Of a stretch of DNA of 64,000 bases, positions 1 through 58,768 are shown in pieces (position 1 is the first letter of the stretch; the number at the start of each line of letters is the position of its first letter). A program made the translations under genes and the position numbers. The DNA is from Rhizophagus irregularis (lineage: Eukaryota; Glomeromycota; Glomeromycetes; Glomerales; Glomeraceae), in NCBI RefSeq assembly GCF_026210795.1, contig NC_089436.1, positions 3,720,001 to 3,784,000 on the forward strand. Reading direction: 5' to 3'. The notes under the pieces are model-generated. The model was not told the origin of the DNA. It saw only the letters and a list, made by a program, of their open reading frames with translations, and searched no databases.

Positions 1-1246
1 TTTCAATGCCAATTCCTTCTTCATAACATAGACCTAATTTAAATTGTGCATCTTTATATTCATTTTCTGCTGCTTTTTGATACCAATAAAAGGCTTTTTC
101 TAAATCCTTTTCCTTTCCTTCTTTATCTATATATCTATTGGCTAAATTAAACATTGCAATAACATTACCGTTTTCTGCTGCTTTTTGATACCAGTAAAAA
201 GCTTTTTCTAAATTTTTTTCTGTTCCTTCTCCTCTTTCATAATACACAGCTAAATTATTCATTGCAATATTATTACCATTTTCTGCTGCTTTTTGATACC
301 AATAAAAGGCTTTTTCTAAATTCTTTTCTGTTCCTTTTCCATCTTTATAACATAGGGCTAAACTACTTATTGCTTTAATATGATCTTTTTCTGCTGCTTT
401 TTGATACCAATAAAAGGCTTTTTCTAAATTCTTTTCTGTTCCTTTTCCCATTTCATAATACATAGCTAAATTATTCATTGCAACATCATTACCATTTTCT
501 GCTGCTTTTTGATACCAATAAAAGACTTTTTCTAAATTCTTTTCTATTCCTTCTCCTTTTTTATAGCACATGGCTAAATTCTTCATTGCAATATCATTAC
601 CATTTTCTGCTGCTTTTTGATACCAATAAAAGGCTTTAACTTCATCTTTTTCAATACCAATTCCAAACTGATAACAATAACCTAATCTATTTTGTGCATA
701 TTTATTTTCATTTTCTGCTGCTTTTTGGTACCAATAAATGGATTTATCTTTATTCTTAATATCAATTTCTTTTTCATAATAAAAATCTAATTTATTTTGT
801 GTATATTTGTTTTTATTTTTTCCTTTTTGATACCAATAAAAGGCCTTAGCTTCATCTTTTTCAATACCAATTCCTTCTTCATAACATAAACCTAAATTAA
901 ATTGCGCTTCTTTATCTACATTTTCGGCTATTTTTTGACACCAATAAAAGGCTTTAGCTTCATCTTTATCAGTACCAATTCCTTCTTCATAGCAAATACT
1001 TAATTTAAATTGTGCTTCTTTATTTTCATTTTCTGCTGCTTTTTGATACCAATAAAAGGCTTTAGCTTCTTCATCCTTTTCAATACCAATTCCATTAGAA
1101 TAAAAAACACCTAAATTAAATTGTGCTTCCTTATCTCCATTTTCTGCTGCTTTTTGATACCAATAAATGGCTTTTTCTAAATTCTTTTCCGTCCCTTTTC
1201 CATTTTCATAACATATGGCTAAATCATTCATTGCATGTTTATTATC
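1..1246 (-). pseudogene. Sel1-repeat gene, downstream part (cut off by window edge, separated from its start by a LINE)
   Basis: The minus strand reads without a stop as 36-residue Sel1-like repeats of the type A-x-NLA-x-CY-x-G-x-GTEK-x-LEKAFYWYQKAAENG. Sel1 repeats form helical solenoids that act as protein-protein scaffolds. The frame picks up exactly where the fragment at 9264-9498 stops: both pieces share the 16 bases at 1231-1246 and 9264-9279, and joining them restores a continuous repeat. The gene runs off the left edge of the window, so its C-terminus is unknown. A kinase domain could follow, as in the gene at 23545-26814. The LINE between the parts makes this allele disrupted. I am sure of the repeat family and the split; the partner is unknown. 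Confidence 0.85.
1231..1246. repeat. LINE target-site duplication, 3' copy
   Basis: The 16 bases TTGCATGTTTATTATC here are repeated exactly at 9264-9279. They flank the poly(T)-ended element between them, as expected for target-primed reverse transcription. Confidence 0.95.
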
Positions 1247-1269
1247 TTTTTTTTTTTTTTTTTTTTTTT
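1247..1269 (-). repeat. LINE poly(A) tail
   Basis: This is a run of 23 T on the plus strand, so poly(A) at the 3' end of the minus-strand element. It directly abuts the target-site duplication. AATAAA-like sequence lies just upstream in the 3' UTR. Confidence 0.93.
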
Positions 1270-1424
1270 AATAGTAACGCATTTTATTAATTATTTAAAA
1301 TTTACAAAATTTATATAATTAGTTTAAAATACTTAGAGCTCGCCATAAAATGACGAACCCTATAACTAAGTTTTAACTATCTAAAACTATTCTATTTCTA
1401 TCTAATTTTAAACTATCTATTTAT

Positions 1425-4400
1425 CTATACTAAGTCAGTAATCTTTGGTGTTAGGTCCCAGTTATGTTCTATATTAATTCCTTCAGTTACCGCACCTATA
1501 AGTCTATCTCTCGTTACTATATTAATTTTTTCATCAAATTCTTTTTTTTGTTTTTTCTTGTCTTTTTTATTTGTTTTTTTATTTTCTGTGTTTTCATCTG
1601 CAGAGTCCCCTTCCTGTTGATCCTGCTTTCTTCTTCTTTTTTCCTTCCTTAAATCTTGTTTCTGTATCCCCTTTAATTTTTCTAATCTTGCGACTTCTTC
1701 GCAACGAATTAACCAAATTCTAGTTTTGAATTCTCTATATATAAAGTTCCAACACTCCTTTATAATCCTTAATTCTTCTTTGATCTTTGTTAAATGATTG
1801 AATCTATCATTAAAGACTCCTCTTAGCATTTCCCAAATTCGACTTTTTCCAAGTAAAATATTTGATCTTTCTTCTAGAATTGTAACGATATTAATATTGT
1901 GATTTCTCAAGATTGTAATATCTTCTGATCTTCCGTTTTTATTTAAATGTTCTTCAAATTTACTTATAGATTCTCTCAAAATTTCATCTAGATTTGCTTC
2001 GTTATCGGTACAAATCCATACATGATCCCATGTCTCTATCTCATTTTCGTCGCATCTTATACATTTATTATTTTCTAATGCATCAACATCTCTTTTGCAT
2101 AATGTCTCATACGTTGGAAGGTCTTTTAATAAGTTCTTTATTCGATACGACCGTTCTATAGTATCTACAGAACTACATTGCCTTTTAGTAAATGTTGTAC
2201 GATTACTAATAAATTCTAATGTCGTCCTCCAGTCGAATTCTTTTTTAAAATTAAGTATAAAGAGATCATTTAATTTATTACTATTTAGGATTTCATTTTT
2301 CCATAATGCCATAGAAACTTTTTTCCTCCAATTTCTGAATCCTCCAGTAATAATATTTTTCCTCCATATTAAATTGTATTCATTTATTAATAAGGCATTT
2401 TCTATTATTTCGATCTTATATCTCATTTTCTTTTCTTTAAGATCTTTTCCTAATATTTGTTCCATTCTCTTTTTGATATCTTTCATTATGATTGCTTCTT
2501 CCTCATTAATGTCTTCTACGATATTTATAACATTTTTTGTCAAAAAATTTTCTATATAAAGTAGCTCTATATAATAATCGCTATCTATTTTTTTCCTATT
2601 ACTCGTATTGATAATAAAATCTTTGATTAATTTTTTAATATTTTCGTTTATTCCTAAAACTATCTCACTATTATCATTAATCAGTATTAATCCAATAATT
2701 ATACTTCTTATTAGAATTTTGAATTCGTTTTCATTATAAATTTCGTAGCTAGCTGATATCAAAATTTCTTCTTCTTTATTAACGTTGTCTTCTTTTAAAA
2801 TCCATATTATGTTATACCAAAAAGCTCTTTTACCCTTATTATTTATATGACTTTTAATTTTCTTTAGCTCTATCATCAAGTAATACCTTTTGGTTCTTCT
2901 ATCGTTTTCATTTTCGAATAAGCTATTTTTCATTATTGTAATAAAATCATCTTCCGCTTTTATTAAACTATCAATTTGATCTATTTTTCTATTTATTTCT
3001 TCGTTATTTTCTTCGTCTTCGTTAATTGCTCTTATACATTCATTTTTCTTAATTAAAGTACTAATTGTTTCATAAGGTTTTATCGCTCCCTCTTCTTTTC
3101 TTGTCTTTATTATTCTACTATTTTTGTTTTCTATATATATTAAACATTTTTCATTATTGTCTTTTTTCTTACTAATATTTTTCTCGCATCCTTCGCAACT
3201 TATAAGTAGGGGTGAGTTGTTCCAATCCAAGGTATCTTCTTTGTATGTATAATGAATACCTATTCTTTTGTATTTCTTACTTTTGGATCCTTTTTTGTCT
3301 ACTGCAAAAATTGGAAATTCACCTTCTTCATTCCAAGATATTAACGTATTTTTTCCTTGTTTCTCGCTTTCATCAAAATAGTTAATATTAATATTATTTC
3401 TTTCGAATTTTCCCATGTATTCTTTTTTGATTTTTCTCGTATTCTCATTTGTATTGTCTATCAATTTTCCTTCTAGTTCTTTAAACCATTTAGGAATTTT
3501 ACCTTTTGTGCTAACGCCTAATTCTATGCACATATGTTTCCATTTTTTCATATTTACTCCATCTATTTCTAGTAAATCTTCGATAAACATTACTTTCTTG
3601 TTTCTTCTTGAGAGCGCACTTTTCATGATATTTTTTTCATCAATTATTTCGATAATATCTTTAGCACCGCCTTCTATTAAATGATTTATATTAATGTTAT
3701 TATATACTTCGTGATCGCAAATGTTAATGTTTTCGTTATTCAATAACTTAATTGCTTCAATTATCCAATTATTCTTAATTTTATATCTTAAGTTCAAGTC
3801 GCCTGGGCATTTTGATGTCCATATCCTTTTTTGTTCTTGCGACATCGCGATTTTGAATAATTTTTTTAGTTTTTCATTACCATTTGCCTGGTATAATAAA
3901 TTTTTGCAAAGCATTTCTAACTGTAGATCGTATATATGTTTTACATCGTAAATATCTTTATCATAAATCACGAAGTTCGGTGTTGATCGTGCTAACCTGG
4001 CTCTTTTCTTGATTATCATATTTAATCGTGTCATTAATTTTGTACATTCATTTTTCGTTAGAACTATAGCCGCCAGTTGATATTCGATCCTCGGTATTAT
4101 TACTATATTCCATACCGCTATTATTTGCTTTTCGTTTAATTTTTTCCAATTAAATATATTGCACGCGCTATTAATAATTGATGCTATTTTGTCTTTGTAA
4201 ATTTTTCTTTTATTGTCATATCTAAAATATACTCCTAAGTATCGATTTCCTTCTTCATTATTCATTTTTTTAATTACATTTCCTTCTATTTCGAGCTCTT
4301 TCTCTTCACTATTAATTTTTATTAATTCGTATTTTCCTACGTTCGCTTTAATATCATTAATATCGAAAAATTGATGACATATATCAATCATTTCTTCTAA

Positions 4401-7400
4401 ATTTTTCTTATTATTGCTGATAATCGTAGTGTCATCCATAAATGCCGTCACGTTTATGGAAATGTTTAAATCGTCTATTTCTCTTTTTCTTAAATTTATT
4501 ATTTTCTTTTCATTTAGATTATAACCATTATTTTCTCTAATTTGTTCTAACCTTGCTAAAAGTGCGTCGTAAAAAATTCTCCATAATATGGGCGACCACA
4601 CTTCGCCTTGATCTAGGCCATCTTCTACGTAATATTCATCAGTCATCTCGTTGTTTATTAAAATCCGATTGTGTCTATTTAAACTTATATCTAAAACGAG
4701 ATTTATAAATTTTTCCGGGAGTCCTATTCTTTTCATACTTAATTCAAGCATTTGTATATTGACCGAATCGTACGCCTTCGAGATATCCATGAAAAGAATC
4801 CATGCTTCTTTTCCGTTTCTATTCGCATCTTCGATTATGTGTTGAATAATATTAATTGGTTCAAGCGTACTTTCGTTCTTGAGTGCCGCATAATTAGTAT
4901 CTGTGAGAATCTTGTTATCCGATAAAATTTTGCTCAATCTATTTACTAATATTTTGAACCATATTTTACGCGCGGTTTCCAGTAATACTATTGGTCTCGT
5001 TAGCGATAGATCTTGATTCCAATGCGAACGTGTTGTTTTATTAATCGGGTATATTAAACCTTTTTTCCATTTTTCTGTCGCATTTCCTTTCTCCATGCTT
5101 TCATTAATAATAGCTAAAAGTATCTGTCTTGTCAGATTTTTGCTTTTCTTCCAGAAATCATAACTTATTCCGCTCATTCCTGGCGCTTTGTTTGATTTCA
5201 AATTCTTTATTACTATCTCTAATTCCTCCATCTCAATTTTTTCCATCAATTTCTTATATATGTCAGTATCAATGATTTCTAACGGTTTATATATTTCTCT
5301 CCATTCATGATTGAATTCTATTTCGTCTAGATTTATGTTGCGTTTCGCTGTCCATTTGCTGTAGTGCTCTAGAGTTATTTCTTTTATTTTTTCTTGATTT
5401 TTTTCTATCGTTATTTTCCCATTTTCTTTTATTACTAGACTTGACATGTCTATTTTTTCTCTTTTCTTTTCTAGAATTCTGTTTATCATTTTTCCTATAT
5501 CTTCTTCTAAGTATATTTCTCTTTTCTTTATATTAATTTCAATTATTCTGTCGTTTATTTCTTCGTAAAGCTTTATCATGTATTTTCTCCTTTCTTTTCC
5601 TCTTTCTTCTAGTTCTTTTCTTTTTCTATATTCTCTTAAATGTTCTATATTTATTAATCTCTCTTTGTTCGTTTCTATTTTGTCGTGTGTTTTTATTAAA
5701 CTAATTAATTTTTTTGCGTTAAATTTTCCTGTATCAGTCGTTCCCCAATCTTCTATAGTTAGTTGTTCATCGAAACTTTTATATTGTTTTCCATTTTTTG
5801 CTGTTTCTCTTCCTTTCCATTTCTTTTTAACTACTTTTCTAAGTAATTTGGTTATTTCGTGTTCTATGTTATTAATTTTTTCTAAATTCTCGTACTCTTT
5901 TATCAAATGATCTAATGTTCTTTCTTCCATTTTCTGTTGGTCATCGTTCTCCTTTTCCTTTTCTTTTTTCCTGATTTCTTTTAATTCCTCTATTCGTTTG
6001 GTTTTTTGTTCTTCGTATATTGCTACCATTGTTTCCCACATTTCTTCTCTATTTATATCATTTTCTGTTATATCCAGCAGTTTATCGTCGAATCTTTCTG
6101 CTATTATTTCCCAATCTTCAGTTTCTAATTTTATTCTTTTAAGTTCTGTTTTTATTTGTTTGAAATATTCTTTTCTGTTTAGATCTATCGATTCTTTTAA
6201 TTCTAGCTTGATCGTTAGTGCTTTGTGATCTGTCATAAATTCTTCTATATCTAAAACTTCATGACTTAAAATTTGCCCTAGAATGCCTTCGCTTGTGAAA
6301 ATATAGTCTATTCTGGATGAATGTTCTCTACTCTTCCAAGTATCTAGCATATCTTTCCCTGTCAGACATTCGTGAACATCTGTCAAGCCATGTTTTTTTA
6401 TCGTTTGAGTTACCGGTTTACTTTTTTTCTTGTTGTTTGCTGATTCGTTGAAATCTCCTAATATTATCAGTTCCTGGTTTAAATTTTTCGCTTCGTTAAT
6501 CCAAGCTGTTACTTTCTTTTCTATTTGTCTTGTAGTATCTTTGTCGTTGTTTGGATTGTAAATTCCTATTATTTTAATTCCTTTTTGTTTATCTTTGAAT
6601 AGTATATCTAATTTGATCACGTGACCGTCTATTTTCTCTACTTTGTATCTCCGATCGTTCAGCTTTTTTCTAATTAATATTATTATTCCACTTTTTGTAT
6701 TGTCATTATTGAAACTACTATTTATGCATTCGTATTTGTCCCATCCTTTGTAAATATATTTTCCTTTTTGTTCTGTTAATTTTGTCTCTGTTACGATTGC
6801 TATATCCCATTTTTCTTTTCCCAGAAAGGTTCTCAAATTTCCTTGTTTTTCTACATCATTCATACCTCTTATATTTATACAACCTATTGTTAAATGATTC
6901 TGTTTTTCCTCTTTTTTATTTGTTTTAATATGTTTTTTATGGTTTTCGTGATTTTTATATGTTTTGTCGTTTTTTGGGTTTTTCTTTGCGAGTTTTTTTC
7001 TTTTCTCTTCTACTCCTTCGTCCGCGCTTACTTCTTCGCCTTCTTCTCTTCCTTCCTTTTTTCTTTTATTTGATGTTATTTTAGAAGCGCTCGTCCATTC
7101 GACGTCTTCCATTGTATCTATTTCTTTCGTTCCAGTTTCCGTTATCGTATCTTCTATTTCCTCCGATATAGCCATTGTTACTATTGTTTCTTTTGTCGCT
7201 CTGGTTTTGTTCTCTATAATCGTTGTATCTATTTTGTTGGTATCCTTCACTCTGATATCTTCTATTTTCATATCTTCCATTTTCATTGCGATCATCGTTA
7301 AATTGTCTTCTTCGGTAATCATTGTTCCAATCTTTTCTGTGTCTGTTGTATCTGCTGTTACCGTTGTTGTTGTTGTTCGGTCCTCTGGGTGGCGTGAAAT

Positions 7401-7694
7401 TTCCTTCGTTGTCATATGTCCCTCTGTTGCTGTAACTATTGTGATTGTTCCAATCTTTTCCTCTGTAGTCTCTGCTGTTTCTCTGTCCTTCGTTGTTGTT
7501 GCTGTTGTTGAAATAGCAATCTCTTGCTTTGTGATTGTTCCTTTTACATATAAAACATCTTGTGTTATCTTCATATCCTCCTTTATCGTGCATTTGGCTT
7601 TGAAATCTTCCGTTATTTCTTCTATTGTTGTTTCGAAAAAAGTTTTGTCCATTCTCGTCGTCACGAAAAAGCCACGTGAAGGTTTTGTCGTCAA
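1425..7694 (-). CDS. LINE ORF2: AP-endonuclease / reverse transcriptase polyprotein
   Basis: The product nicks target DNA and reverse-transcribes the element RNA. The open frame is 2,089 codons. Residues about 266-497 are an exonuclease-endonuclease-phosphatase domain with the family motifs NIRG, VTETKL (Glu303), LGDFNE (Asp413), RIDYI (Asp463) and TDHKA (Asp489/His490). The reverse transcriptase covers about 830-1150, with motif A FMDISKAYD (Asp970) and the catalytic FMDD box (Asp1087/1088). A CX2CX9HX3C motif lies at 1878-1895, followed by a Lys-rich tail. The first 614 nt overlap ORF1 in the +1 frame and begin at a TTG, not an ATG. The first 200 residues are Thr/Ile-rich and look like an off-frame reading. 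An ATG at 7112, 31 nt before the ORF1 stop, is the likeliest start; a frameshift from ORF1 is the alternative. No clear RNase H is seen. Confidence 0.93.
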   Translation of the reverse strand: MTTKPSRGFFVTTRMDKTFFETTIEEITEDFKAKCTIKEDMKITQDVLYVKGTITKQEIAISTTATTTKDRETAETTEEKIGTITIVTATEGHMTTKEISRHPEDRTTTTTVTADTTDTEKIGTMITEEDNLTMIAMKMEDMKIEDIRVKDTNKIDTTIIENKTRATKETIVTMAISEEIEDTITETGTKEIDTMEDVEWTSASKITSNKRKKEGREEGEEVSADEGVEEKRKKLAKKNPKNDKTYKNHENHKKHIKTNKKEEKQNHLTIGCINIRGMNDVEKQGNLRTFLGKEKWDIAIVTETKLTEQKGKYIYKGWDKYECINSSFNNDNTKSGIIILIRKKLNDRRYKVEKIDGHVIKLDILFKDKQKGIKIIGIYNPNNDKDTTRQIEKKVTAWINEAKNLNQELIILGDFNESANNKKKSKPVTQTIKKHGLTDVHECLTGKDMLDTWKSREHSSRIDYIFTSEGILGQILSHEVLDIEEFMTDHKALTIKLELKESIDLNRKEYFKQIKTELKRIKLETEDWEIIAERFDDKLLDITENDINREEMWETMVAIYEEQKTKRIEELKEIRKKEKEKENDDQQKMEERTLDHLIKEYENLEKINNIEHEITKLLRKVVKKKWKGRETAKNGKQYKSFDEQLTIEDWGTTDTGKFNAKKLISLIKTHDKIETNKERLINIEHLREYRKRKELEERGKERRKYMIKLYEEINDRIIEINIKKREIYLEEDIGKMINRILEKKREKIDMSSLVIKENGKITIEKNQEKIKEITLEHYSKWTAKRNINLDEIEFNHEWREIYKPLEIIDTDIYKKLMEKIEMEELEIVIKNLKSNKAPGMSGISYDFWKKSKNLTRQILLAIINESMEKGNATEKWKKGLIYPINKTTRSHWNQDLSLTRPIVLLETARKIWFKILVNRLSKILSDNKILTDTNYAALKNESTLEPINIIQHIIEDANRNGKEAWILFMDISKAYDSVNIQMLELSMKRIGLPEKFINLVLDISLNRHNRILINNEMTDEYYVEDGLDQGEVWSPILWRIFYDALLARLEQIRENNGYNLNEKKIINLRKREIDDLNISINVTAFMDDTTIISNNKKNLEEMIDICHQFFDINDIKANVGKYELIKINSEEKELEIEGNVIKKMNNEEGNRYLGVYFRYDNKRKIYKDKIASIINSACNIFNWKKLNEKQIIAVWNIVIIPRIEYQLAAIVLTKNECTKLMTRLNMIIKKRARLARSTPNFVIYDKDIYDVKHIYDLQLEMLCKNLLYQANGNEKLKKLFKIAMSQEQKRIWTSKCPGDLNLRYKIKNNWIIEAIKLLNNENINICDHEVYNNININHLIEGGAKDIIEIIDEKNIMKSALSRRNKKVMFIEDLLEIDGVNMKKWKHMCIELGVSTKGKIPKWFKELEGKLIDNTNENTRKIKKEYMGKFERNNININYFDESEKQGKNTLISWNEEGEFPIFAVDKKGSKSKKYKRIGIHYTYKEDTLDWNNSPLLISCEGCEKNISKKKDNNEKCLIYIENKNSRIIKTRKEEGAIKPYETISTLIKKNECIRAINEDEENNEEINRKIDQIDSLIKAEDDFITIMKNSLFENENDRRTKRYYLMIELKKIKSHINNKGKRAFWYNIIWILKEDNVNKEEEILISASYEIYNENEFKILIRSIIIGLILINDNSEIVLGINENIKKLIKDFIINTSNRKKIDSDYYIELLYIENFLTKNVINIVEDINEEEAIIMKDIKKRMEQILGKDLKEKKMRYKIEIIENALLINEYNLIWRKNIITGGFRNWRKKVSMALWKNEILNSNKLNDLFILNFKKEFDWRTTLEFISNRTTFTKRQCSSVDTIERSYRIKNLLKDLPTYETLCKRDVDALENNKCIRCDENEIETWDHVWICTDNEANLDEILRESISKFEEHLNKNGRSEDITILRNHNINIVTILEERSNILLGKSRIWEMLRGVFNDRFNHLTKIKEELRIIKECWNFIYREFKTRIWLIRCEEVARLEKLKGIQKQDLRKEKRRRKQDQQEGDSADENTENKKTNKKDKKKQKKEFDEKINIVTRDRLIGAVTEGINIEHNWDLTPKITDLV

Positions 7695-9180
7695 TTTTGA
7701 TTTTTTTCCTTATTGCTTCTTGTCTCTCTGTTGCGTTGTTGAATTGTACTATCATTCTGTATGTTCCTCTATTCCTGTCGGGTGACTTATACCAATATCT
7801 TGCACCTGTTTGTCTGAAGATTGGTGTGAATTCTGTGTCGTTGATATGATTGGGTATGTCTATTACGCTCGCGATTATTTTCCCTCGTTGTTTGGTCACG
7901 TGATTTTTGTAATTTAAAGGTTCCGTTCTGATCATTTTTCCGTTGATAAAAATTCCCCATGTATTCAATAATTCATCGTCCGTACATTTTATGTTCATTA
8001 GCACTTTCATGTTGATTTTTCCATTTAATTCATTTTGATGCGTAATTCGTTCCATTTTCCCAAATTTGTTTTCTAGTTGCGTAATTACATCTTCTATATT
8101 CATACTTTTTTCGATTCCTGTTACTGATATTAATATTGTCGTATCAATTTTGTTTAACCATTCGAGGTTTCTGAATTTTCCTATTGCTTCCGATATTCTT
8201 GTGTCTTCCAGGAATTTGTTTTTTGCTGTTTCTGTAAAGAAACCAACGTATGTGTATTCGTTCCCATTTTTTATGGTTCTTCCCAGTGTGTTCACGTGAA
8301 ATTCTAATAATTTGTTATTATTTAAAAATTCTGTTATCATTTTGTCATCTTGTGCTTGTGTTCCTTTCATCTGATGTGTAAAAAGACCCGCGAAATATTT
8401 CAGGTCGTTTGCTGTTTTAGGTTTGTGCATCGATTCTTTGCTTTTTATGGAATTTTCTCCCATGTCGTGATCTGCGGTTATCGCCATTGTAATTGATTGG
8501 TTCCTTGAATATTGAGAATTTCCGTATTCGGTCCTCTCCTGCATTTGCGAGTTGTTATTGGTGCTGTGAGGTGTGTTGACCTTTGTAGGATGTGAAGATT
8601 TGTTGTATATCTGGTATCTTTTCGCAAAGTTTTCATTTTGGTTGAATTCGTCACTACATGTGCTGCTGTTCGTTTCTTTTTCCCAAGGTAATTCATCGCT
8701 GGAAGCGCTGCCTGTTGTTTCTAAGTGATTATCGACCATTTCTTTGCATTTTTTCATTTTTTCTTTGTCGTCTTGGTCTACTGTTCCCAATTCCGTTATA
8801 ATTTGGTGTTTTTTCATTGAGGTGTGTTTAAAGTAGTATTCTTCTTTCAGTTTCCAGTTTTCGTCCATTATTCTAATTTGTTCGTTCATTTCAAAGTGTT
8901 TTTGTTCGAGCGTTGCGTTGTGGAGATTTTTGTATTCTTCTATGTATCGGCCAAATTCTTTGTTGCGTTCTGTATTGTTCTCATCTATGCATATCATTAT
9001 AATTCCTCTCATGAAGCAGCCAAATTTTATATCTTCGACTCCTAGGAAGTTGGCCAGGTCTTGGTCTATTTGTGTTGGTTCCATTCCTGCGTTTTTTAGT
9101 ATGTCAGTGCGTTCTTCATCGCTTTTCTTTGCGTATCCTTCTAAAGCTATAAATTTTTCTTTTGACGGTGTTATTCCCAT
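7081..9180 (-). CDS. LINE ORF1: RNA-binding gag-like protein with zinc knuckle
   Basis: This 699-residue protein starts at an ATG 83 nt from the element's 5' end. In LINEs, ORF1 coats the element RNA and helps ORF2. Residues about 345-420 fit an RRM-like fold: a beta strand ILISVTGI, a helix with EDVITQLENKFG, then further strands. A canonical CX2CX4HX4C zinc knuckle sits at 542-555 (CFICKRNNHKARDC). The last 150 residues are very rich in Asn, Arg, Tyr and Gly, an RGG/prion-like tail expected to bind RNA or phase-separate. Its final 614 nt are also open in the ORF2 frame. The family assignment rests on motifs only; the N-terminal 250 residues are unrecognised. Confidence 0.88.
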   Translation of the reverse strand: MGITPSKEKFIALEGYAKKSDEERTDILKNAGMEPTQIDQDLANFLGVEDIKFGCFMRGIIMICIDENNTERNKEFGRYIEEYKNLHNATLEQKHFEMNEQIRIMDENWKLKEEYYFKHTSMKKHQIITELGTVDQDDKEKMKKCKEMVDNHLETTGSASSDELPWEKETNSSTCSDEFNQNENFAKRYQIYNKSSHPTKVNTPHSTNNNSQMQERTEYGNSQYSRNQSITMAITADHDMGENSIKSKESMHKPKTANDLKYFAGLFTHQMKGTQAQDDKMITEFLNNNKLLEFHVNTLGRTIKNGNEYTYVGFFTETAKNKFLEDTRISEAIGKFRNLEWLNKIDTTILISVTGIEKSMNIEDVITQLENKFGKMERITHQNELNGKINMKVLMNIKCTDDELLNTWGIFINGKMIRTEPLNYKNHVTKQRGKIIASVIDIPNHINDTEFTPIFRQTGARYWYKSPDRNRGTYRMIVQFNNATERQEAIRKKIKIDDKTFTWLFRDDENGQNFFRNNNRRNNGRFQSQMHDKGGYEDNTRCFICKRNNHKARDCYFNNSNNNEGQRNSRDYRGKDWNNHNSYSNRGTYDNEGNFTPPRGPNNNNNGNSRYNRHRKDWNNDYRRRQFNDDRNENGRYENRRYQSEGYQQNRYNDYREQNQSDKRNNSNNGYIGGNRRYDNGNWNERNRYNGRRRMDERF

Positions 9181-9263
9181 TTTTGTTTCTATTTAATTTT
9201 AGTTTTCTGGTTTGCTGCGGAATTCTATGTAAATCGGTTTATGCAGGAGAGAGTTTTCCTCTC

Positions 9264-9279
9264 TTGCATGTTTATTATC
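9264..9279. repeat. LINE target-site duplication, 5' copy
   Basis: Exact repeat of 1231-1246. It lies inside a Sel1 repeat codon stretch, between the host gene and the first base of the LINE leader. Confidence 0.95.
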
Positions 9280-12400: not shown

Positions 12401-13070
12401 CTAAATAAGATTTATTTAAAAAAAAAAGCGATTAAAAAAAGTGCGATTTATTAGGGAGTACAGTTTATTACGTCATTCCATATATGGCAAAAAATGATCA
12501 CTTTTTTTTACTTCTTTACAATATTTTTTAAACTCTGCTTAAAAATATTCGTTAGAAAGCCAGAGTCTCTGTCTTTCAAATAAACTTTAAAGAGGCTAAT
12601 AAAGTTTATAACAAAAAAACTATCATATGAAGTCGATAATAAGTTGCGAATTCTCTAAATAGTCCAACTTTAGATTAACTTCAAACTTGCGAAACCTTTT
12701 GAGGCCTATAGTATGATTAGTGAAATGATGTAAATCAAAAAATCATTTGAGCATTATTTATTCAAATAAAAATTTTTACTAATACCATTTTAATTTTTTT
12801 TTATCTTTAGTGTATTTTTTTCCTTTTAAATTTAAATACAAAACACAAAACATTTCATATTTTGTGAGGTGGTAATTAGATTATTATAATTTTATAATAC
12901 TTATATGTTTAGCATTCGTGGAGTTTACTGATTTTAATGTATGAAATCAAAAACAAAGTTATTTTTATTAAGTTTTGTTACTGTTTCAGAAACAATAATA
13001 AAATGATTATTATATAGGTAGGATTGTATGATTGTTTTCTATTTGAATATATATTTAAATAAAATTCATA
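9499..13070. other. Intergenic, no confident gene
   Basis: This stretch is 3.5 kb of AT-rich sequence. It holds only short open frames and one candidate exon (11631-11955). I see no tRNA, inverted-repeat element or recognisable coding domain. One TCACGTGA palindrome lies at 10892. Confidence 0.5.
11631..11955 (-). CDS. Possible exon of an unrecognised gene
   Basis: The minus strand is open from about 11955 to a TGA at 11631, giving about 105 codons with a protein-like mix of charged and hydrophobic residues (for example KRVVKWIDKIRND and SIKSLIRDLPYVW). A short ATG-started segment ending in a GTATTA donor-like site (12105-12052) lies upstream, but I could not find an acceptor joining the two in frame. 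It may be a last exon, a decayed gene or chance. No domain is recognised. Confidence 0.25.
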
Positions 13071-13089
13071 TGATGGTTTGTGAGATATT
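13071..13089. repeat. Direct repeat at 3' side of the orphan-ORF retroposon
   Basis: The 19 bases TGATGGTTTGTGAGATATT recur exactly at 15831-15849 and bracket the element between them. They are read as a target-site duplication. Confidence 0.85.
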
Positions 13090-13391
13090 TATTTATTTAT
13101 TTATTTTATGTGAAGACGGACAGACTATTAACAGGACATAAACGTAACCGTGCTATCCTACTTCTAGCTATCATCCCCCCGAAGATGGACCCGAACTTCT
13201 TTAAATCCAACGAACCAGAATGATCCCCTCCCCTACCAGAAAGGAACCAATGAACCGAAAGAAAAAAATGATAAAGGACACTGACTAAATATTAAGAAGT
13301 TGTGGCAATCTACACATTATAAATAGCAAAATTCAATTTATTGACGACAATCATAAAATGATCCGTATTTTTCTTTCAACCCATAGGGTCG

Positions 13392-13417
13392 CCACCTGTA
13401 AATACTGTCATAGGTGG
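13392..13417 (-). other. Conserved RNA hairpin in 3' region of the retroposon (copy 1)
   Basis: A perfect 6-bp stem CCACCT/AGGTGG encloses a 14-nt loop containing GTAAATACTGTCA. The homologous site at 56893-56918 has the same loop but the stem CTATAC/GTATAG, that is, compensated changes. It is probably recognised as RNA, for example by a reverse transcriptase, but that function is inferred. Confidence 0.6.
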
Positions 13418-13568
13418 AATGATTCACACTATTCTAAATTGTTTGGTGTATAAAAAGTAAACGTGATTTGTACATAATAGTACTACATATAAAACGAAAC
13501 TAAAAAGATGTAGAAAAATCTACTTGTAAAAAAAAAAAAATTTTGGTTAAAATAACCGTAAAAAAAAA

Positions 13569-15665
13569 CTAAAACTTAATCCGTGAAGGACCTGCAACGG
13601 CAGTAGTATCGACTGGTACTTTGGACGGACGATTCCGTTTGTAACGATCTTCATCTATATGAAAAAAATTATTAGCAACTAACGCTGTATTGCGTTTTTT
13701 AGGACGATGTTCCAACTCTTTGGTGTCATCTGACGTTATTTCTTTCTTCTTTTCTTTTTCTTTGCGAATCTTGCCATTAGCTTTCTTTGATCTTTCATTA
13801 AAATTAACCCCACTATTATAATATAGTTCGAAAGATTCCATTTCCGCATTGAGTTCGGCATATCTGATGACGTCATTACCTTTCAGAGGTGTGGTAGTGA
13901 GATGATTCATTCGCTCATGAAAGTGTCTGGTTTTGCCTGTCAGCATTTTACTAGCATGTCTTCTACGTGATAATGTGTGGACACTGGTGCCATAATATCG
14001 GGCTTCAGCTTTAATCGCTTGTTCTTTTTCGAGTAATTCTCTCGTTTCTCTCTCACGTTCTTGTTCCGATTGAAGCAAATATTTACGTTCTTGGCTAGTT
14101 GTAGCTGAAGAGATCCTGCGATGAAGGTTACACATATATGTGAACCATAAATGAGAACCAGGCCTTATGTAATCACCTGTATCTGTATAAAGAGGATCTT
14201 TAGGGATGATGTCCCTGTATTTATAGGGTATAAACATATCTGGGTAGGGATCATATTCTCGAACCCAAGGTTGGGCATTAAAAGGAGATATCTCTGGAAT
14301 TAAATGGTTATATCCTCTAATAATGGGTCGGCCAGTGCGTGAATCAGCGTGATTTGTTGTCTTGTAGTAATGAGGCGTAGAAAAACCATAGTCCTCTGAA
14401 ACTAAACCGTGATCATATATCAAATGTTTCACCGGTTTGTTGATATATTGAGATTTTAGAAACAAAAAATGATATCGTTGCGCCGTACGTAACCTATGCC
14501 TATTAGGGTCGGGAATGTTTTGCTCTTTTGTTTTAAAAACCCATCTACATGCTCGGAGAAATCGGGTTTCTTGCTTTTTCTTAACTTTGAGACAGTTTGA
14601 TTGCTTGAGCTGAAAGTCAGTAAGACGTTTTCTATACATATGTTTATTACCATATTCTAAGACAGATTGAACATCTCTAGCGTGTATCGCTTCTTGATAT
14701 GATATACCTAGTCTGTTTGAAAATACTGATTTTTTGGAGCGATTTTTCCATCGGTCGTAAATCAAATTAGCATGAAGAGCTTTACTATTAACTATGCCAT
14801 CCGAATTAGATACAGAATCTTTCGGTTTGTGAAATAATTTTTCACTGAAGAATTGTCGTTGATGCGTAACACACGCTCGTCTATGTTTTGACATAACAAA
14901 AGGAACAGGTACATTACATATATACGGGGTTGAAGAAAATGAGGGAGTAGAGCAATGTTGACAAGGGGTGTAGATCCCAAAATGAAAACGATATCGTTTA
15001 TAAGTAAAATAGAAAAAGGTCTTCGTAATGCGATTTCTTTCGATAGTACTATGATCACGTGAATAGACCATCAAGTGTCGAGCCAATAATTTATCTCGTA
15101 TATAGTTAAAATATTTTTGTTGAATAGCGCGTGGTAACACTCTTTGTGAGGAAAAAAAGTGTGTGAGCATACAACTCATTTGGTATTTGGCGTTCGGAAT
15201 TGTACTTGTGTTATTATAACTAATCGGTTTAGTGTTCATGTGGTAATCATTTGTGTGTATCTTGAGATGAATATCATTGGTGTTCTGAGGATGATCATCT
15301 AACTCAAAAAAGAAACTTCTTGAACGTCGGATTTCATAAATCCTGTTATATCCAGATCGTCGTGGAGAAGTCACGTGAAATTTGGAAAAAGAGATCTTCA
15401 AAGGATTATTTTTTCCAGGCGAAGAAGATTTTTCTATAGTACGAGAAGGCCTTAATAAACGTGGGCGTTTTTTCCTTTTTTTCTTTTCAATAGGTAATAT
15501 CACCGGAAGAGAAGATATCGTATCCTTTAAGGGTTCAGGAGGTGTAACAGGAACTCGTGAGGGTATTGGAGTAAGGAGAGAAAGGTTAGAGAAGTTATTC
15601 TTATTCTCATAAACGGGGTAAATATCGCTGAAGTCCGCGGCGTCTGCTCGCGGAAAGCCTTTCAT
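13569..15665 (-). CDS. Orphan retroposon protein, basic, His/Arg/Tyr-rich
   Basis: The first ATG (15665) gives 698 residues; the frame is also open 15 codons further up from a TTG. The N-terminal quarter is Pro/Ser- and Lys/Arg-rich (KKKRKKRPRLLRPSR, a likely nuclear signal). The middle is rich in Tyr, His and Arg with a single CQHC pair. Around residues 545-580 a highly charged helix (QERERETRELLEKEQAIKA) should form a coiled coil. The C-terminus is Lys-rich. No FADD/YxDD box, integrase DDE triad, zinc knuckle or endonuclease motif is visible. A stretch with the pattern QFFS-x-x-L-x-H...VNSKAL aligns with QFYSRLTH...VNSQRL in the second copy, so the protein is conserved between copies. Function unknown. 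Confidence 0.7.
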   Translation of the reverse strand: MKGFPRADAADFSDIYPVYENKNNFSNLSLLTPIPSRVPVTPPEPLKDTISSLPVILPIEKKKRKKRPRLLRPSRTIEKSSSPGKNNPLKISFSKFHVTSPRRSGYNRIYEIRRSRSFFFELDDHPQNTNDIHLKIHTNDYHMNTKPISYNNTSTIPNAKYQMSCMLTHFFSSQRVLPRAIQQKYFNYIRDKLLARHLMVYSRDHSTIERNRITKTFFYFTYKRYRFHFGIYTPCQHCSTPSFSSTPYICNVPVPFVMSKHRRACVTHQRQFFSEKLFHKPKDSVSNSDGIVNSKALHANLIYDRWKNRSKKSVFSNRLGISYQEAIHARDVQSVLEYGNKHMYRKRLTDFQLKQSNCLKVKKKQETRFLRACRWVFKTKEQNIPDPNRHRLRTAQRYHFLFLKSQYINKPVKHLIYDHGLVSEDYGFSTPHYYKTTNHADSRTGRPIIRGYNHLIPEISPFNAQPWVREYDPYPDMFIPYKYRDIIPKDPLYTDTGDYIRPGSHLWFTYMCNLHRRISSATTSQERKYLLQSEQERERETRELLEKEQAIKAEARYYGTSVHTLSRRRHASKMLTGKTRHFHERMNHLTTTPLKGNDVIRYAELNAEMESFELYYNSGVNFNERSKKANGKIRKEKEKKKEITSDDTKELEHRPKKRNTALVANNFFHIDEDRYKRNRPSKVPVDTTAVAGPSRIKF

Positions 15666-15830
15666 ATCATGAATATTGTATGTGAGAACCAAAACCTTGT
15701 ATACGACCAAGGCGCCCGGGTGGGCCTCTATCCCCTTGACGTTTCAAATAGAAACTAAAAAAAAACTTGCGCTATATTACTGCGGAAAATTAACAAAAAT
15801 AAAAAAAAGGGGAAAGAGTTTTTTTTGTCC

Positions 15831-15849
15831 TGATGGTTTGTGAGATATT
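15831..15849. repeat. Direct repeat at 5' side of the orphan-ORF retroposon
   Basis: Exact copy of 13071-13089. The first 11 bases, preceded by CC, also occur at the 5' boundary of the second copy (58756-58768). Confidence 0.85.
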
Positions 15850-16053
15850 GTAAATTTTCATGGTTGTTATTCGTTTTTCGTTATCACGTGATCTCATCAA
15901 AATGATCGTCATATAATATAAATGATAACGCACTATATTGGAGCGTACCGCAAATAAAAAACAGGTTCTTCTTTATCCTTTTGATTAACTATAATTTGAA
16001 GTAAAAAAGAAATTATTTATTATTTCTTCTAATATAAAAAAAAAAAGATGAAG

Positions 16054-17614
16054 TTAACTAAATAACTCACGACGATCCTTTAATCCTCGTCCAAAATTAT
16101 TGTAAACGAATACAGACCAAATTAATGAGAACTAAATAAAAAAAAAAATCATTAATATTGTGAAATACTATAACAAAACTTTTTTAATTACTTACAAAAC
16201 TTATTATGATTCCAATGGAAACTAAAAATAGCGGGTATGTTAATATAAATAGCAAAAAAATCTAAAAGAAAAGTATCGAAAATAAATACTTTTTACATAC
16301 GAAATACAATGAAAAAGTACCAACTATCCTTAACACTTATCGAATATTTCATAAGTATACAAAAATCTATAATAATAGCAGCCCAAAATACACATAAGCA
16401 TATCATACCAACTTTTATTTCTCTTTTTGCCTATTAATTGATAATAACTAATTAATAATCGATTTTTAAAATATTTATACAAAAAAAACTTTTAGATAAC
16501 ATACCGAACGATATCCGATTATTTGAATTAGAAAAGTTAAGCCTGTCACTGCTATATGAAACAAATAAAAATGTCTTGGAAGAAATCTGATGCGGTTTAT
16601 AGATGTATGTTCGACTAAATTTATTTTAAATACTATACATGCTTCTAAAGCTAGCCCCAATATAAAGAATAATCCGAGCTTAAGTAACATTTCATAGCTT
16701 AAGTATGTCTTGAACATGGCTAAAAATGAAAATCAATTCACGCGTTAATAAATAAATAAACAAATTTTTAATTTTTAATCTAACGTGCCTTGTGTATTGA
16801 TGTCTCCACCAATTTTTTTATATATGTTCCAACCAAGTTGCCGATATAATTTCCAACCCAGGAAAGCCATAATAAAGCCAAATATTATTAATGCTATCAT
16901 TAATGGTATGTCATACGATAAAAATTTTGGGTAAGATTCAAATTTCAATGGAGCTTGACATAACTTGCCGATATTTCCGTACCATTTTCGGACTTCGAGT
17001 ATCTGAACCTGTTAAAAAATTTTATTTAGATTTTAATAAACAAATGTGTTGCAAGTGGACTTGACATCATTGACTTATATCTTACAATGGCAAAAAGAGC
17101 ACAAAAGAAAGTAACTGCAGCAGTGGTAACAATCTGAACTGTATTTTGAGTATAGATCTAAAGAAACATCCCGTAACGAAATTCTATTAATGGATTATGT
17201 TTGCGCAAAATAAAGGATACAGCTTTGTCATTTTCTTACCGCATTAAAACATAACCACATTTGAAAGATTTGAAATATAATAAAGATAATATTTTCTTCA
17301 ATTATATTGTTTAGTATAAAAAGATCTGGAACTAAGCAACTCATGCTTGGGTTACTACTTCTGGCGTAAGCAACCAACGATATACTAGTATCATTATTAC
17401 GGTGGAATACTCGAACTTCTAATGCTGTTATTATTATGGCTTGCAAAATTGACGAAAGAATAAACAATTGTGTTGTTCTTGATCTGTTGATGCGGTGCAG
17501 CTGGGATACAAATTGTTTAGAAAACACGTTGTTAAAGAGAATTCAAAAAAATTTTCATTTATAAAAATCGCTTACCAACTTTATACATTTGCGTTTTATT
17601 ACAATCATAACCAT
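16054..17614 (-). CDS. UPF0658-like Golgi membrane protein, eight exons
   Basis: I assembled eight exons: 17614-17576, 17500-17240, 17157-17086, 17008-16789, 16719-16505, 16430-16308, 16261-16196 and 16131-16054. They give 357 residues with consistent phases. About eight hydrophobic segments are visible (roughly 22-44, 76-98, 105-127, 151-176, 205-227, 248-267, 275-298, 306-332). The stretches GWKLYRQLGWNIYKKIG, KVGMICLCVFWAAIIIDF and the C-terminal FGRGLKD resemble the fungal UPF0658 Golgi apparatus membrane family, whose molecular role is unknown. All introns are 47-79 nt except a 64-nt gap before exon 8. Intron 4 (16788-16720) needs a GC-AG pair; the only nearby GT leaves the wrong frame. 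Exon 6 uses a weak GTATTT donor. The start could also be the ATG at 17608. Family assignment is from memory of motifs. Confidence 0.82.
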
Positions 17615-56644: not shown

Positions 56645-56892
56645 TTATTTATTTTATTTTTAAAAGAGTAGTAACCAGGGTCTATTACATTTAATAACCA
56701 AGTTTTGAAACAAAATGACTATCTAAGTAGTAGATCGGTGGTCGTCCCTCAAGAGAGGATCTCACCCTTCGATTTGACTACGCTATAAGAACAAACTGGA
56801 ACGTAAAACAATGAGGAAGACAAAAGAACTAGTTATAAAAAAGATTAGTCGTTTAATCTATCAATCCGTATTTTCTTTTATCCATAAGGATA

Positions 56893-56918
56893 CTATACGT
56901 AAATACTGTCAGGTATAG
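56893..56918 (-). other. Conserved RNA hairpin in 3' region of the retroposon (copy 2)
   Basis: A perfect 6-bp stem CTATAC/GTATAG encloses a 14-nt loop, identical in 13 of 14 positions to the loop at 13398-13411, while the stem bases differ but stay paired. The preceding CCATARGG is also shared. Confidence 0.6.
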
Positions 56919-57853
56919 AATGGTGTATTTTAATAAGGTCCATAATTGTTTTAGTATGATGTCTATTCTTTTGATGTAGAAGGTAAATAGATGGCGGTAA
57001 TGTCCGATTTTTCTGAAGTGTATGAATTATCACTCACAGCACTATGTGAGTAGTTGTCAGGTGTAGGAATACGTCGGAAAAAGGAGTTAGGGTCGTTGAT
57101 AATAGCGCTATCGCGTTGAGACTTGAGAGATCGCGTAACGGCGTAAGTGACGTTGTTGTTGGATTTGGATCGAAACGCTTCCTAACTTTGTAATCGAAAA
57201 GGTTAATATTATAAGTGTTTTTATAATATGTGTAGATGCGTAGATCACCAGGTGTACCCGGAGGTAAAGGAGGGAATTGTTTTTTCAATTTGTTGCGTTT
57301 TCGATTACGACGTATCCAGTTTTTAATCCTTCGTTTATGTCGTTTTCGTTTTTCAAATCCGCTGTGTTTTTCAGGCAAATGTTGGATTTGTTTAAATAAC
57401 GCAGGATGTGGCGTTCGAACACATTTGGTGTCTAATATTATCGAAGTGATTTTGTTGTGATAATATTCGTGATTTAGAGTACTTTTAGTAAGGCAGTTCC
57501 ATCGCTCTATCTGTTTTGGAGATCGGTGGACGTCTAATTTGAGGTTAGAGTATTCTTTGTAATAATATCTTTTCTGAATGTCCGGGGGAGGGTCCATCAT
57601 TTGCTTCAATTCAGGATTGAGCTCGCCTATAGACTTGTTGTATTTGTGTATCGTCACAGTATAATTAACGCATAAGCGTTGGGAATTAACGTTTTTGACA
57701 TTTTTATTTTGTTTGAGTGCGCTATGAGTGAGACGAGAATAAAATTGTTCTTCGTGAAAATGAGGGCCTTTTGGGAAACGACTTTCTCCATGAGTTAATG
57801 TCGAGTTTGTTGCTTTTTTCATGATGAGCACCGCAGTACCAGCAGCGTTTTTA

Positions 57854-58690
57854 TGGAAAGCCGTCCTTGACAAAAGGTTGATATCCAGACATCATGTTGG
57901 ATAATGTCTAGACATCATGTTTGATATATGTAGGATGATGTTTATGGCACGCCGGACTGGACAGATGTTTAAACGTAAAAGCTAAATCATTTGACGTTAA
58001 CACCATATCATTTGACTTTGGAGTACAAAGCATTTGGTGTTAAATATAAACCATTTGTCATTAATTCCAAAGCATTTGTCATTAATTCCCAAAGCATTTG
58101 CCATTAATTCCAAAGTATTTGCAAATCTATAAACAAATTTCCTATAAAGGAAATAGGATTTCACGAGACTTTTAAAAAGAAAATTATTACTTAAATTGCA
58201 CCATTTGAATTTTAACCAAATATGGAAAATTATTTTCATATCGCCAAACTGTTTGACAGTATTGGCAAAGAATTTAACTATAAAGTCAAACAGTTTGTCG
58301 GTACAGCAAATCATTTGAATTTCGCAGTTAACCTTAAACGTCAAATGATTTAGCTTTTACGTTTAAACATCTGTCCAGTCCGGCGTGCCATAGATGTTTG
58401 TACATCATTCAACATGATGCTCAAGCATCAACCGACATGATGTCTTAGACATCATGTTACCAAATATAGTAAATTTTATTTTGTGTAACTCATAAATATA
58501 CTATATTTGGTAATTTGATCAGCATGATGTCTAGACATCATGTCGGTTGATGTCTTTCACATCATGTTGAATGATGTATAAACATCATCCTACATATATC
58601 AAACATGATGTCTAGACATACCATCATGATGTCTAAATATTATATTTCATGATGTTTGGACATCAACCTTTTGTCAAGGACGGCTTTCCA
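57854..58690. mobile_element. Outer fold-back element, 837 bp, inside the retroposon ORF
   Basis: Inverted ends are TGGAAAGCCGTCCTTGACAA, continuing AAGGTTGATRTCC for over 40 bp, with TA on both outsides (57852-57853; 58691-58692). The arms extend inward as one long imperfect palindrome built of ATGATGTCTAGACATCAT-like units around a centre near 58480. It is a Tc1/mariner-like MITE by its TA duplication, with no ORF. Confidence 0.88.
57945..58390. mobile_element. Inner inverted-repeat element, 446 bp, nested in the fold-back element
   Basis: Inverted ends begin TGGCACGCCGGACTGGACAG and run over 50 bp nearly perfectly, again with TA outside both ends (57943-57944; 58391-58392). Inside lie about four units of CATTTGTCATTAATTCCAAAG (58043-58110). 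It has no ORF. It must be younger than the element it interrupts. Confidence 0.88.
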
Positions 58691-58768
58691 TACGTTTTGA
58701 CATAACACGCTGCTGGAAGAGGACATGAGTTGAAATTGATGTTGGTCACGTGTGCCCTGATGGTTTGT

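Follow-up and report, generated by a model that had tools for sequence, protein, structure and literature searches.

The locus described here raises the question of why a mobile element that lives off the enzymes of others would keep a gene of its own. It lies in a stretch of 64,000 nucleotides of Rhizophagus irregularis DNA (the window), and its features are collected in Table 1. The explanation that we favour, and which we consider likely, is that of a LINE-dependent retroposon which provides the protein that packages its RNA and takes exchangeable tails from LINEs, with the role of the protein being inferred. What makes this unusual is that a mobile element that appears to depend on LINEs also encodes a conserved protein without known relatives, and the retention of such a gene in a non-autonomous element points to cis preference.

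Table 1. Features of the retroposed element and of its distant relative in the window (feature, position, strand, remarks).
Whole retroposed element	13090..15830	-	2,741 bp; 5' end 15830, 3' end 13090; flanked by exact 19-bp repeats, empty-site alignment
Target site duplication, copy at element 3' end	13071..13089	.	Exact repeat TGATGGTTTGTGAGATATT; single in paralogous empty sites
Target site duplication, copy at element 5' end	15831..15849	.	Exact 19-bp repeat TGATGGTTTGTGAGATATT
5' UTR, 165 nt	15666..15830	-	Start CTCTTTCCCC...CCGCAGTA conserved, common to subfamilies; predicted stems, weak covariation
Orphan ORF, 698 aa (with stop)	13569..15665	-	Basic; purifying selection in family
Conserved core of protein, ~codons 95-435	14361..15383	-	
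Candidate zinc-binding module, codons 235-268	14862..14963	-	Cys235, Cys250, Cys265 and His268 invariant, 33/33 proteins
Element-specific 3' UTR RNA	13361..13429	-	Two hairpins and likely 6-bp pseudoknot; no Rfam match
LINE-derived 3' tail including (AAAT)n tract	13090..13336	-	96% identity to 3' end of LINE in locus L031
Remnant: last codons and stop codon of partner LINE ORF2	13310..13336	-	Sequence comparison
Clade 2 element ORF fragment, 262 aa	57034..57822	-	Interrupted upstream by nested inverted-repeat elements
Element-type 3' RNA structure in distant family member	56864..56930	-	RNA model, 58.7 bits, E 2.3e-11

The window element has a single intact ORF and an (AAAT)n tract at its 13090 side. 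When its flanks were joined, with the element removed and one repeat kept, we obtained 48 genomic matches, 14 of which crossed the junction (70-74% identity), and four paralogous empty sites (loci L064-L067) aligned without a break over the repeat. As the joined flanks match uninterrupted paralogous sites, the window element is an insertion, and its A-rich tail, target site duplications and empty sites identify this insertion as LINE-type. It is also interstitial, lying at 3.73 Mb on a 5.30-Mb contig with its target site duplicated. Two-sided changes were seen in only 2/22 pairs of the predicted 5' UTR stems, and structure in this region is therefore claimed only weakly. A 13-mer shared between positions 15829 and 58756, CCTGATGGTTTGT, was considered as a second terminal motif and discarded as chance, being absent from all other loci searched.

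The same genome holds a large family that includes the window element and is likely to consist of non-autonomous protein-coding retroposons. Direct repeats of 11-23 bp were found at the ends of 44/51 element loci, directly after the A-rich tail in 43 of the 51 and after a bare tail-B end in one (L057), while no direct repeat was found in seven (L008, L011, L021, L026, L027, L052 and L053). This count omits the LINE loci (L025, L029-L035 and L058-L060), the empty sites, and L004, which belongs to the L003 element. With an automatic procedure, a direct repeat of ≥13 bp was detected in the own flanks of 34/41 element loci compared with 6/598 using exchanged flanks. Ten of the 51 loci had no landmark for this test, five of which (L048, L050 and L055-L057) have repeats found otherwise, and L002, L003 and L041 scored below 13 bp because of wrong landmarks, their actual repeats being 15, 14 and 20 bp, respectively. 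Forty units could be bounded, omitting L054-L057, in which repeats are present but which were not compared with LINEs; 39 of them were 2,505-3,149 bp long and one, which carries an insertion, was 4,110 bp. The ORF ranged from 490 to 828 aa across 33 loci and was present in all 15 elements picked by UTR similarity and in all three picked by the RNA motif alone; picks based on the UTRs favour copies whose two ends lie 2.6 kb from each other, and short derivatives without an ORF could escape. Beyond this genome, no relatives were found in IMG/VR viral contigs or in GTDB bacterial and archaeal contigs.

Comparison with LINEs showed that the 3'-most ~160-380 bp of 36/40 bounded copies match the 3' end of one, and only one, of four LINEs, with the match reaching to within 12 bp of the unit's own end, and with LINE A, B, C and D as partners of 14, 9, 3 and 10 units, respectively. 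The match of the window element covers 248 bp at 96% identity and includes the LINE stop codon, while the best match was that of L041, with 201/201 positions identical to LINE D. Three units (L061-L063) have no match among the four LINEs and L028 matches over 38 bp only; the 3' end varies, with at least four LINE-tied kinds plus unassigned ones. Exo_endo_phos, RVT_1 and RNase_H matches were detected in LINEs A and B, and RVT_1 in LINE D, with open frames holding ORF2 of 1967 aa in LINE B and 1988 aa in LINE D. LINE A has its own 16-bp direct repeat after (AAAT)n and one frame break in ORF2, and LINE C (L060) is fragmentary, with broken frames. A further LINE inside the window (1425-9180) was rejected as a partner, as the element tails have no match there. 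These data demonstrate that the tail of the window element derives from a LINE with endonuclease, reverse transcriptase (RT) and RNase H, and that other subfamilies carry other LINE tails. On the ORF tree, elements with tail A do not form one clade (AU test, p-AU 0.000389, with a long-branch warning) and the window element, which has tail A, is placed among tail-B and tail-C elements. Tail type thus conflicts with the ORF tree, which indicates that tails were swapped. When the ORF2s of LINEs A, B and D and of the window LINE were sought in the 40 bounded units, no trace was detected (tblastn, E up to 0.01); nor was any longer copy seen that joins this ORF to an RT. We have no mobilisation data, and regard dependence of the element on LINEs as very likely.

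The protein itself is an orphan. That of the window element has no family in Pfam (E up to 1), NCBIfam or PHROGs (E up to 0.01) and no sequence match in the PDB (E up to 1), and Pfam revealed neither an RT nor an endonuclease family in its ORF. Comparison with the ORF1s of LINEs A, B and D and of the window LINE likewise detected no similarity (hhalign probability 0.1-0.2%). Weak PDB profile matches (best E 0.18, coiled-coil-like) and Pfam matches in 1-3 of 21 members (best E 0.0073) were dropped as scattered. By eye, the N-termini of the proteins look polar and variable. The protein is basic, and three cysteines and one histidine are invariant in all 33 proteins compared. Values of dN/dS were 0.228-0.359 in 32/39 pairs (dS ≥0.1) and 0.313-0.610 in seven closer pairs; these pairs are non-independent and were drawn from proteins selected for an open frame. 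Selection has conserved the ORF.

Just upstream of the borrowed tail is an RNA structure. In its alignment 97.9% of cells were paired, with two-sided changes in 8/17 pairs, and covariation was 0.326 compared with 0.156 in shuffled and at most 0.071 in slid alignments, while a measure of further pair types was not above shuffles (11 versus 13.2). The RNA model matched 46/48 elements, including 21/23 whose sequences had stayed out of the model, but 0/8 LINE loci at E 0.01 or less, and against 11 LINE loci the best E was 0.21. Rfam contained no known RNA family matching 13050-15870 at E 1 or less. We conclude that two covarying hairpins with a likely pseudoknot are specific to the element. Among the six pairs of the pseudoknot a two-sided change occurred in only one, in one sequence, and another pair is broken in 4/20 sequences; an energy fold, which cannot draw pseudoknots, extends hairpin 1 across the pseudoknot loop.

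The original prediction had described a perfect 19-bp repeat around a 2.74-kb unit that ends in (AAAT)n and has one intact 698-aa ORF with no recognisable enzyme motif, as well as LINE-type insertion marks. All of this held, the absence of an enzyme motif in the Pfam, NCBIfam, PHROGs and PDB sequence searches and the insertion marks through the direct repeats and empty sites. Its inference of a protein-coding non-autonomous retroposon is supported by these same marks together with the LINE tails, ORF conservation and lack of ORF2 trace. It would have been refuted by copies without direct repeats or with fixed non-repeat ends; direct repeats are present in most copies, and 3' ends differ between copies.

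In the mechanism that we propose, the transcript would be translated into the basic, CCCH-bearing protein, which would bind its own mRNA in cis, probably via the 3' UTR RNA structure, and pack it into a particle, so replacing LINE ORF1p. A LINE ORF2 protein would then recognise the borrowed tail and, through target-primed reverse transcription, copy the RNA into a nicked target; occasional template switching onto the RNA of another LINE may swap the tail and hence the partner. The packaging role is an inference from basic charge, candidate zinc ligands and selection, with no expression, mobilisation or protein data, and in its cis-acting form we lean only slightly towards it. A bolder reading, which could equally well prove right or wrong, is that of a class of LINE-dependent retroposons with their own particle-forming protein, packaging RNA and change of partner through 3' tail swaps. 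If true, this would be a parasite whose ORF1-like function arose independently and which outlasts the turnover of its enzyme hosts.

We did not recognise an account of this retroposon family in the open-licence literature searched, although an earlier description may exist. The element does not meet the definition of an autonomous LINE, lacking its own endonuclease and reverse transcriptase. Closer are SINEs that share their 3' end with a partner LINE, which presumably supplies EN-RT (PMC3747384); like our family these are non-autonomous, with a 3' end almost identical to that of a resident LINE and the same terminal short repeat (PMC3747384). SINEs are short (below ~700 bp) and non-coding, with Pol III-derived heads. 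The family therefore fits with respect to the LINE-shared 3' end (36/40 bounded units) but not the short non-coding form, as its members span 2.5-3.1 kb, carry a long, selected ORF and have an RNA structure of their own. HeT-A encodes only Gag, apparently selected, and no RT, which comes from another element (PMC5537684), and its Gag forms particles with HeT-A mRNA (PMC5537684). The family resembles it in lacking an RT, in coding for a single, selected protein, whose structural role is inferred, and in its very likely dependence on the RT of another element. However, HeT-A adds to telomeres without internal insertion and is tied to TART/TAHRE, whereas the family, including the window element, inserts interstitially with direct repeats, draws its tails from several different LINEs, and encodes a protein whose sequence shows no resemblance to Gag. 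HAL1 (half-LINE) has ORF1 only, is LINE-dependent and descends from L1 ORF1; it too keeps one protein-coding ORF, but the ORF of our family could not be related to any ORF1 tested. Among fungi, the EKA genes of Blumeria graminis arose from part of a LINE ORF1 in truncated copies and were co-opted as effectors (PMC4641428), and ROPIP1 is a 74-aa peptide of the SINE-like element Eg-R1 (PMC6022647). These are likewise high-copy coding sequences tied to non-LTR retrotransposons; however, our family has a long, orphan ORF that moves in full-length mobile units, and the homology to a resident LINE ORF1 that characterises EKA genes was absent for all four ORF1s compared. Because LINE dependants with only gag (HeT-A) and SINEs with LINE tails have both been described before, the earlier suggestion of a new class of element goes too far.

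The alternative that survives best, and which remains possible, is an ORF1-only descendant of a lost LINE, similar to HeT-A or HAL1, in which a diverged ORF1/Gag was retained, ORF2 was lost, and the remainder later recombined with the tails of living LINEs. In its favour are a basic protein with candidate zinc ligands that could take the place of an ORF1, and conservation of 5' UTR, ORF and 3' UTR as a unit; against it are the lack of similarity to the four LINE ORF1s compared, and 40 bounded copies without a trace of LINE ORF2. Its odds overlap with those of the favoured explanation, because both work in the same way and differ in origin. It is unlikely that LINEs amplified a family of orphan host or effector-like genes (compare EKA genes) that is under selection for a fungal function. 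Repetitive orphan genes are abundant in Rhizophagus genomes (PMC8647823) and the ORF is under purifying selection, but within subfamilies the 5' UTR, RNA structure and LINE tail stay together as a single mobile unit, direct repeats bound most loci, and no intron-bearing parent gene was seen among the loci read. Furthermore, dN/dS of 0.5-0.6 in some of the youngest pairs hints at relaxation after insertion, and the polar, variable N-termini, judged by eye without signal-peptide prediction, also speak against it. A persistent RNA replicon or virus that LINEs had captured as DNA copies would account for conserved, partly structured UTRs on both sides of one ORF. However, LINE tails are inherited within ORF subfamilies, so new copies stem from the DNA copies themselves; on this ground we reject the viral-replicon reading, which also lacks a polymerase and any relative in IMG/VR contigs or PHROGs, and is very unlikely. 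An ordinary gene lying by chance between 19-bp repeats is all but excluded by the exchanged flanks, a family with the same anatomy and the empty-site alignment.

Given that the window is from Rhizophagus irregularis, the family also bears on the genome of this fungus, about one third of which is described as unclassified repeats and in which repetitive orphan genes are puzzling (PMC8647823), as it explains part of both. It also provides a natural test of template choice by LINE enzymes; since one ORF family is joined to at least four LINE tails, the tail, RNA structure and protein are separable experimentally.

We finally consider the second copy in the window, which had originally been taken as proof of a family. 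This claim held in part, as the copy is real but remote and the argument is weaker than stated. No direct repeat was found around it, and its ORF was matched neither by tblastn with 33 first-clade proteins nor by their profile. The link to the window element runs instead through an intermediate, L021, and the second copy is a distant sister of the 13090-15830 element, with which it shares the 3' RNA structure.

The window element is a 2,741-bp unit flanked in the window sequence by an identical 19-bp direct repeat, and comprises a 5' UTR, an ORF and a 3' UTR (Table). Using the joined flanks as an empty-site query, with the element removed and one repeat copy retained, we obtained 48 matches in the same genome, 14 of which span the junction with 70–74% identity, and in all four of those fetched the alignment was unbroken over the repeat. 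As the joined flanks match uninterrupted paralogous sites, the window element interrupts one copy of an older repeat family. The flanks themselves are part of that family, whose identity is undetermined.

Table. Coordinates of features in the window
Feature	Position	Strand	Details
Direct repeat of window element	13071-13089; 15831-15849		19 bp
5' UTR of window element	15666-15830	minus	165 nt
ORF of window element	13569-15665	minus	698 aa
3' UTR of window element		minus	479 nt, (AAAT)n end at 13090
Insertion-site flanks	12871-13070; 15850-16070		older repeat family
Window LINE with flanking TTGCATGTTTATTATC	1231-9279	minus	frames 1425-7652 and 7081-9180
Second window copy, ORF fragment	57034-57822	minus
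Second window copy, RNA structure	56864-56930	minus
Nested inverted-repeat elements	57852-58692		outer arms 68 nt, 88%
Inner arms of nested elements	57943-57998; 58337-58392		56 nt, 100%

A search of the 146.7 Mb genome, in which the window lies on contig C8, returned 65 matches to the window ORF protein after 64 of 477 candidates had been scored, the longest open frame being 835 aa. We read 51 element loci, both window copies counted, and in 44 an exact direct repeat of 11–23 bp bounds the unit, lying directly after an A-rich tail in 43 and after a bare tail end in L057; among these, the repeats of L016 and L042 are only 11 bp and those of L019 and L047 are of low complexity. No direct repeat was found at the other seven loci (L008, L011, L021, L026, L027, L052 and L053). 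With an automatic rule requiring ≥13 bp, repeats were detected at 34/41 loci, compared with 6/598 when flanks were exchanged between loci. Nearly all copies compared at the 5' end share a conserved start, CTCTTTCCCC, after a few mostly A-rich bases, the exceptions being L009 and L051, which have a variant, and L002, which begins slightly inside. The 5' UTR is 80–88% identical at the DNA level between subfamilies with proteins only 31–49% alike, and it has a predicted closing stem (CUCUUUCCCC/GGGGAUAGAG).

Searching with the 3' UTR of the window element recovered LINEs with the same last ~250 bp. In L031, a long copy of LINE A, a 767-aa ORF1 with, by eye, a CCHC-like stretch is followed by endonuclease and RT-RNase H frames with one frame break between, and the copy has its own 16-bp direct repeat following (AAAT)n. 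The segment common to the element and L031 begins within the last ORF2 codons of the LINE and includes the stop codon, which indicates that the tail passed from LINE to element and not the reverse. When 40 bounded units were compared with four LINEs (A, L031; B, L059/L035; C, L060; D, L058), 14, 9, 3 and 10 units, respectively, had matching tails, each fitting one LINE only over 164–384 bp and reaching to ≤12 bp from the unit end, with identities between 72% (L051) and 100% (L041, 201/201 bases). In L028 the match to LINE A extends over only 38 bp, and L061–L063 match none of the four. These last three loci (contigs C12, C8 and C14) have another kind of tail, with (AAAAAT)n at its end, for which a fifth partner LINE is predicted. 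More LINE-tail pairs of kind D were seen by position. Open frames containing ORF2 reach 1967 aa in LINE B and 1988 aa in LINE D, with RVT_1 matches in each and additional RNase_H and Exo_endo_phos matches in B. LINE C is a broken fragment, recognised because it matches the C-terminal portion of LINE A ORF2. A tblastn comparison of the 40 bounded units with the ORF2 of the window LINE and of LINEs A, B and D gave no match (E up to 0.01). Insertion by LINE machinery and the LINE origin of the tail are established at the sequence level.

Mapping the four tail labels onto a tree of 33 ORF proteins requires four changes, one more than the minimum of three, and a constraint holding tail-A elements together was rejected (p-AU 0.000389, with a long-branch warning attached). 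The window element and L002, both with tail A, are placed among elements bearing tail B or tail C.

Searches of Pfam, NCBIfam, PHROGs and PDB sequences with the window protein returned nothing, profile searches with the protein family gave no credible match, and no similarity was found between the ORF protein and the LINE ORF1s tested. The 33 proteins are basic (pI 9.1–10.3) and all share Cys235, Cys250, Cys265 and His268, from which possible zinc binding is inferred. The dN/dS values were 0.228–0.359 in the 32 of 39 pairs having dS ≥0.1 and 0.313–0.610 in the remaining seven closer pairs, in a sample where proteins were picked as open and pairs share branches; this is the pattern expected if selection operates during spread and relaxes after insertion. 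The ORF was present in 15/15 elements fetched by UTR similarity (16 loci, one being a LINE) and in 3/3 fetched by RNA motif alone, with no ORF-less derivatives seen in either set, the former being biased towards copies whose two ends lie 2.6 kb from each other.

The borrowed tail is preceded by a ~69-nt RNA element, formed of a hairpin (CCACCU/AGGUGG) and then a second hairpin. Across 20 distinct sequences, pairing is maintained in 97.9% of cells with two-sided changes in 8/17 pairs, and the covariation score is 0.326 compared with 0.156 for shuffled and ≤0.071 for slid controls, while a measure of further pair types was not above shuffles. The bulk of this support comes from the hairpins. The first loop (GUAUUU) may also pair with a downstream AAAUAC as a pseudoknot, supported by 96.6% pairing and a single two-sided change (L016); however, the last pair is broken in four sequences, and RNAalifold, a program that cannot represent pseudoknots, predicts a longer hairpin 1 reaching into the first loop. 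The two-hairpin model was found in 46/48 elements, including 21/23 whose sequence stayed out of the model, but at E ≤0.01 in 0/8 LINE loci (best E 0.21 over 11 LINE loci), and a genome-wide search with an exact 30-place pattern gave 85 occurrences, compared with none for the reversed control. A second, weaker copy lies near the 5' end in L051 (2781-2852, minus), L052 (447-518) and L009 (3526-3590, minus), and some subfamilies may therefore have the structure at both ends.

In the proposed mechanism, the ORF protein would pack its own RNA via the 3' UTR structure, substituting for ORF1p, a role for which the inference rests on the protein's charge and candidate ligands, on selection, and on the element-specific RNA. 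SINE/LINE pairs (PMC3747384) parallel the element and its partner LINEs, although the element, being coding and long, does not meet the definition of a SINE. HeT-A, which encodes Gag without enzymes for transposition (PMC5537684), is another parallel; however, by sequence the element's protein does not resemble a Gag. R. irregularis has been described as having repetitive orphan genes and unclassified repeats (PMC8647823), and curated LINE and SINE families have been listed for it (PMC11075540). Because of these parallels we consider the element a variation on known LINE-dependent kinds and not wholly new, yet the family itself is not described in the relevant sections of the two R. irregularis papers (supplements excluded).

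The window LINE, which is not a partner, has two ORFs with RVT_1 and Exo_endo_phos, is flanked by TTGCATGTTTATTATC at 1231 and 9264 after a T run, and has a tail unrelated to that of the element. By eye, it is inserted in an apparent Sel1-repeat gene.

The second window copy, around which no direct repeat was found, has the RNA structure with both hairpins maintained by different bases, and its tail resembles kind B (53 bp, 83%). The ORF of this copy falls in a second clade with 109 matches (146 of 172 candidates scored), connected to the first through L021, which matches both. Of five clade-2 loci read (L053–L057), four (L054–L057) have direct repeats of 13–17 bp. Inside the second window copy lie two nested inverted-repeat elements, which are likely to be TIR DNA transposons.
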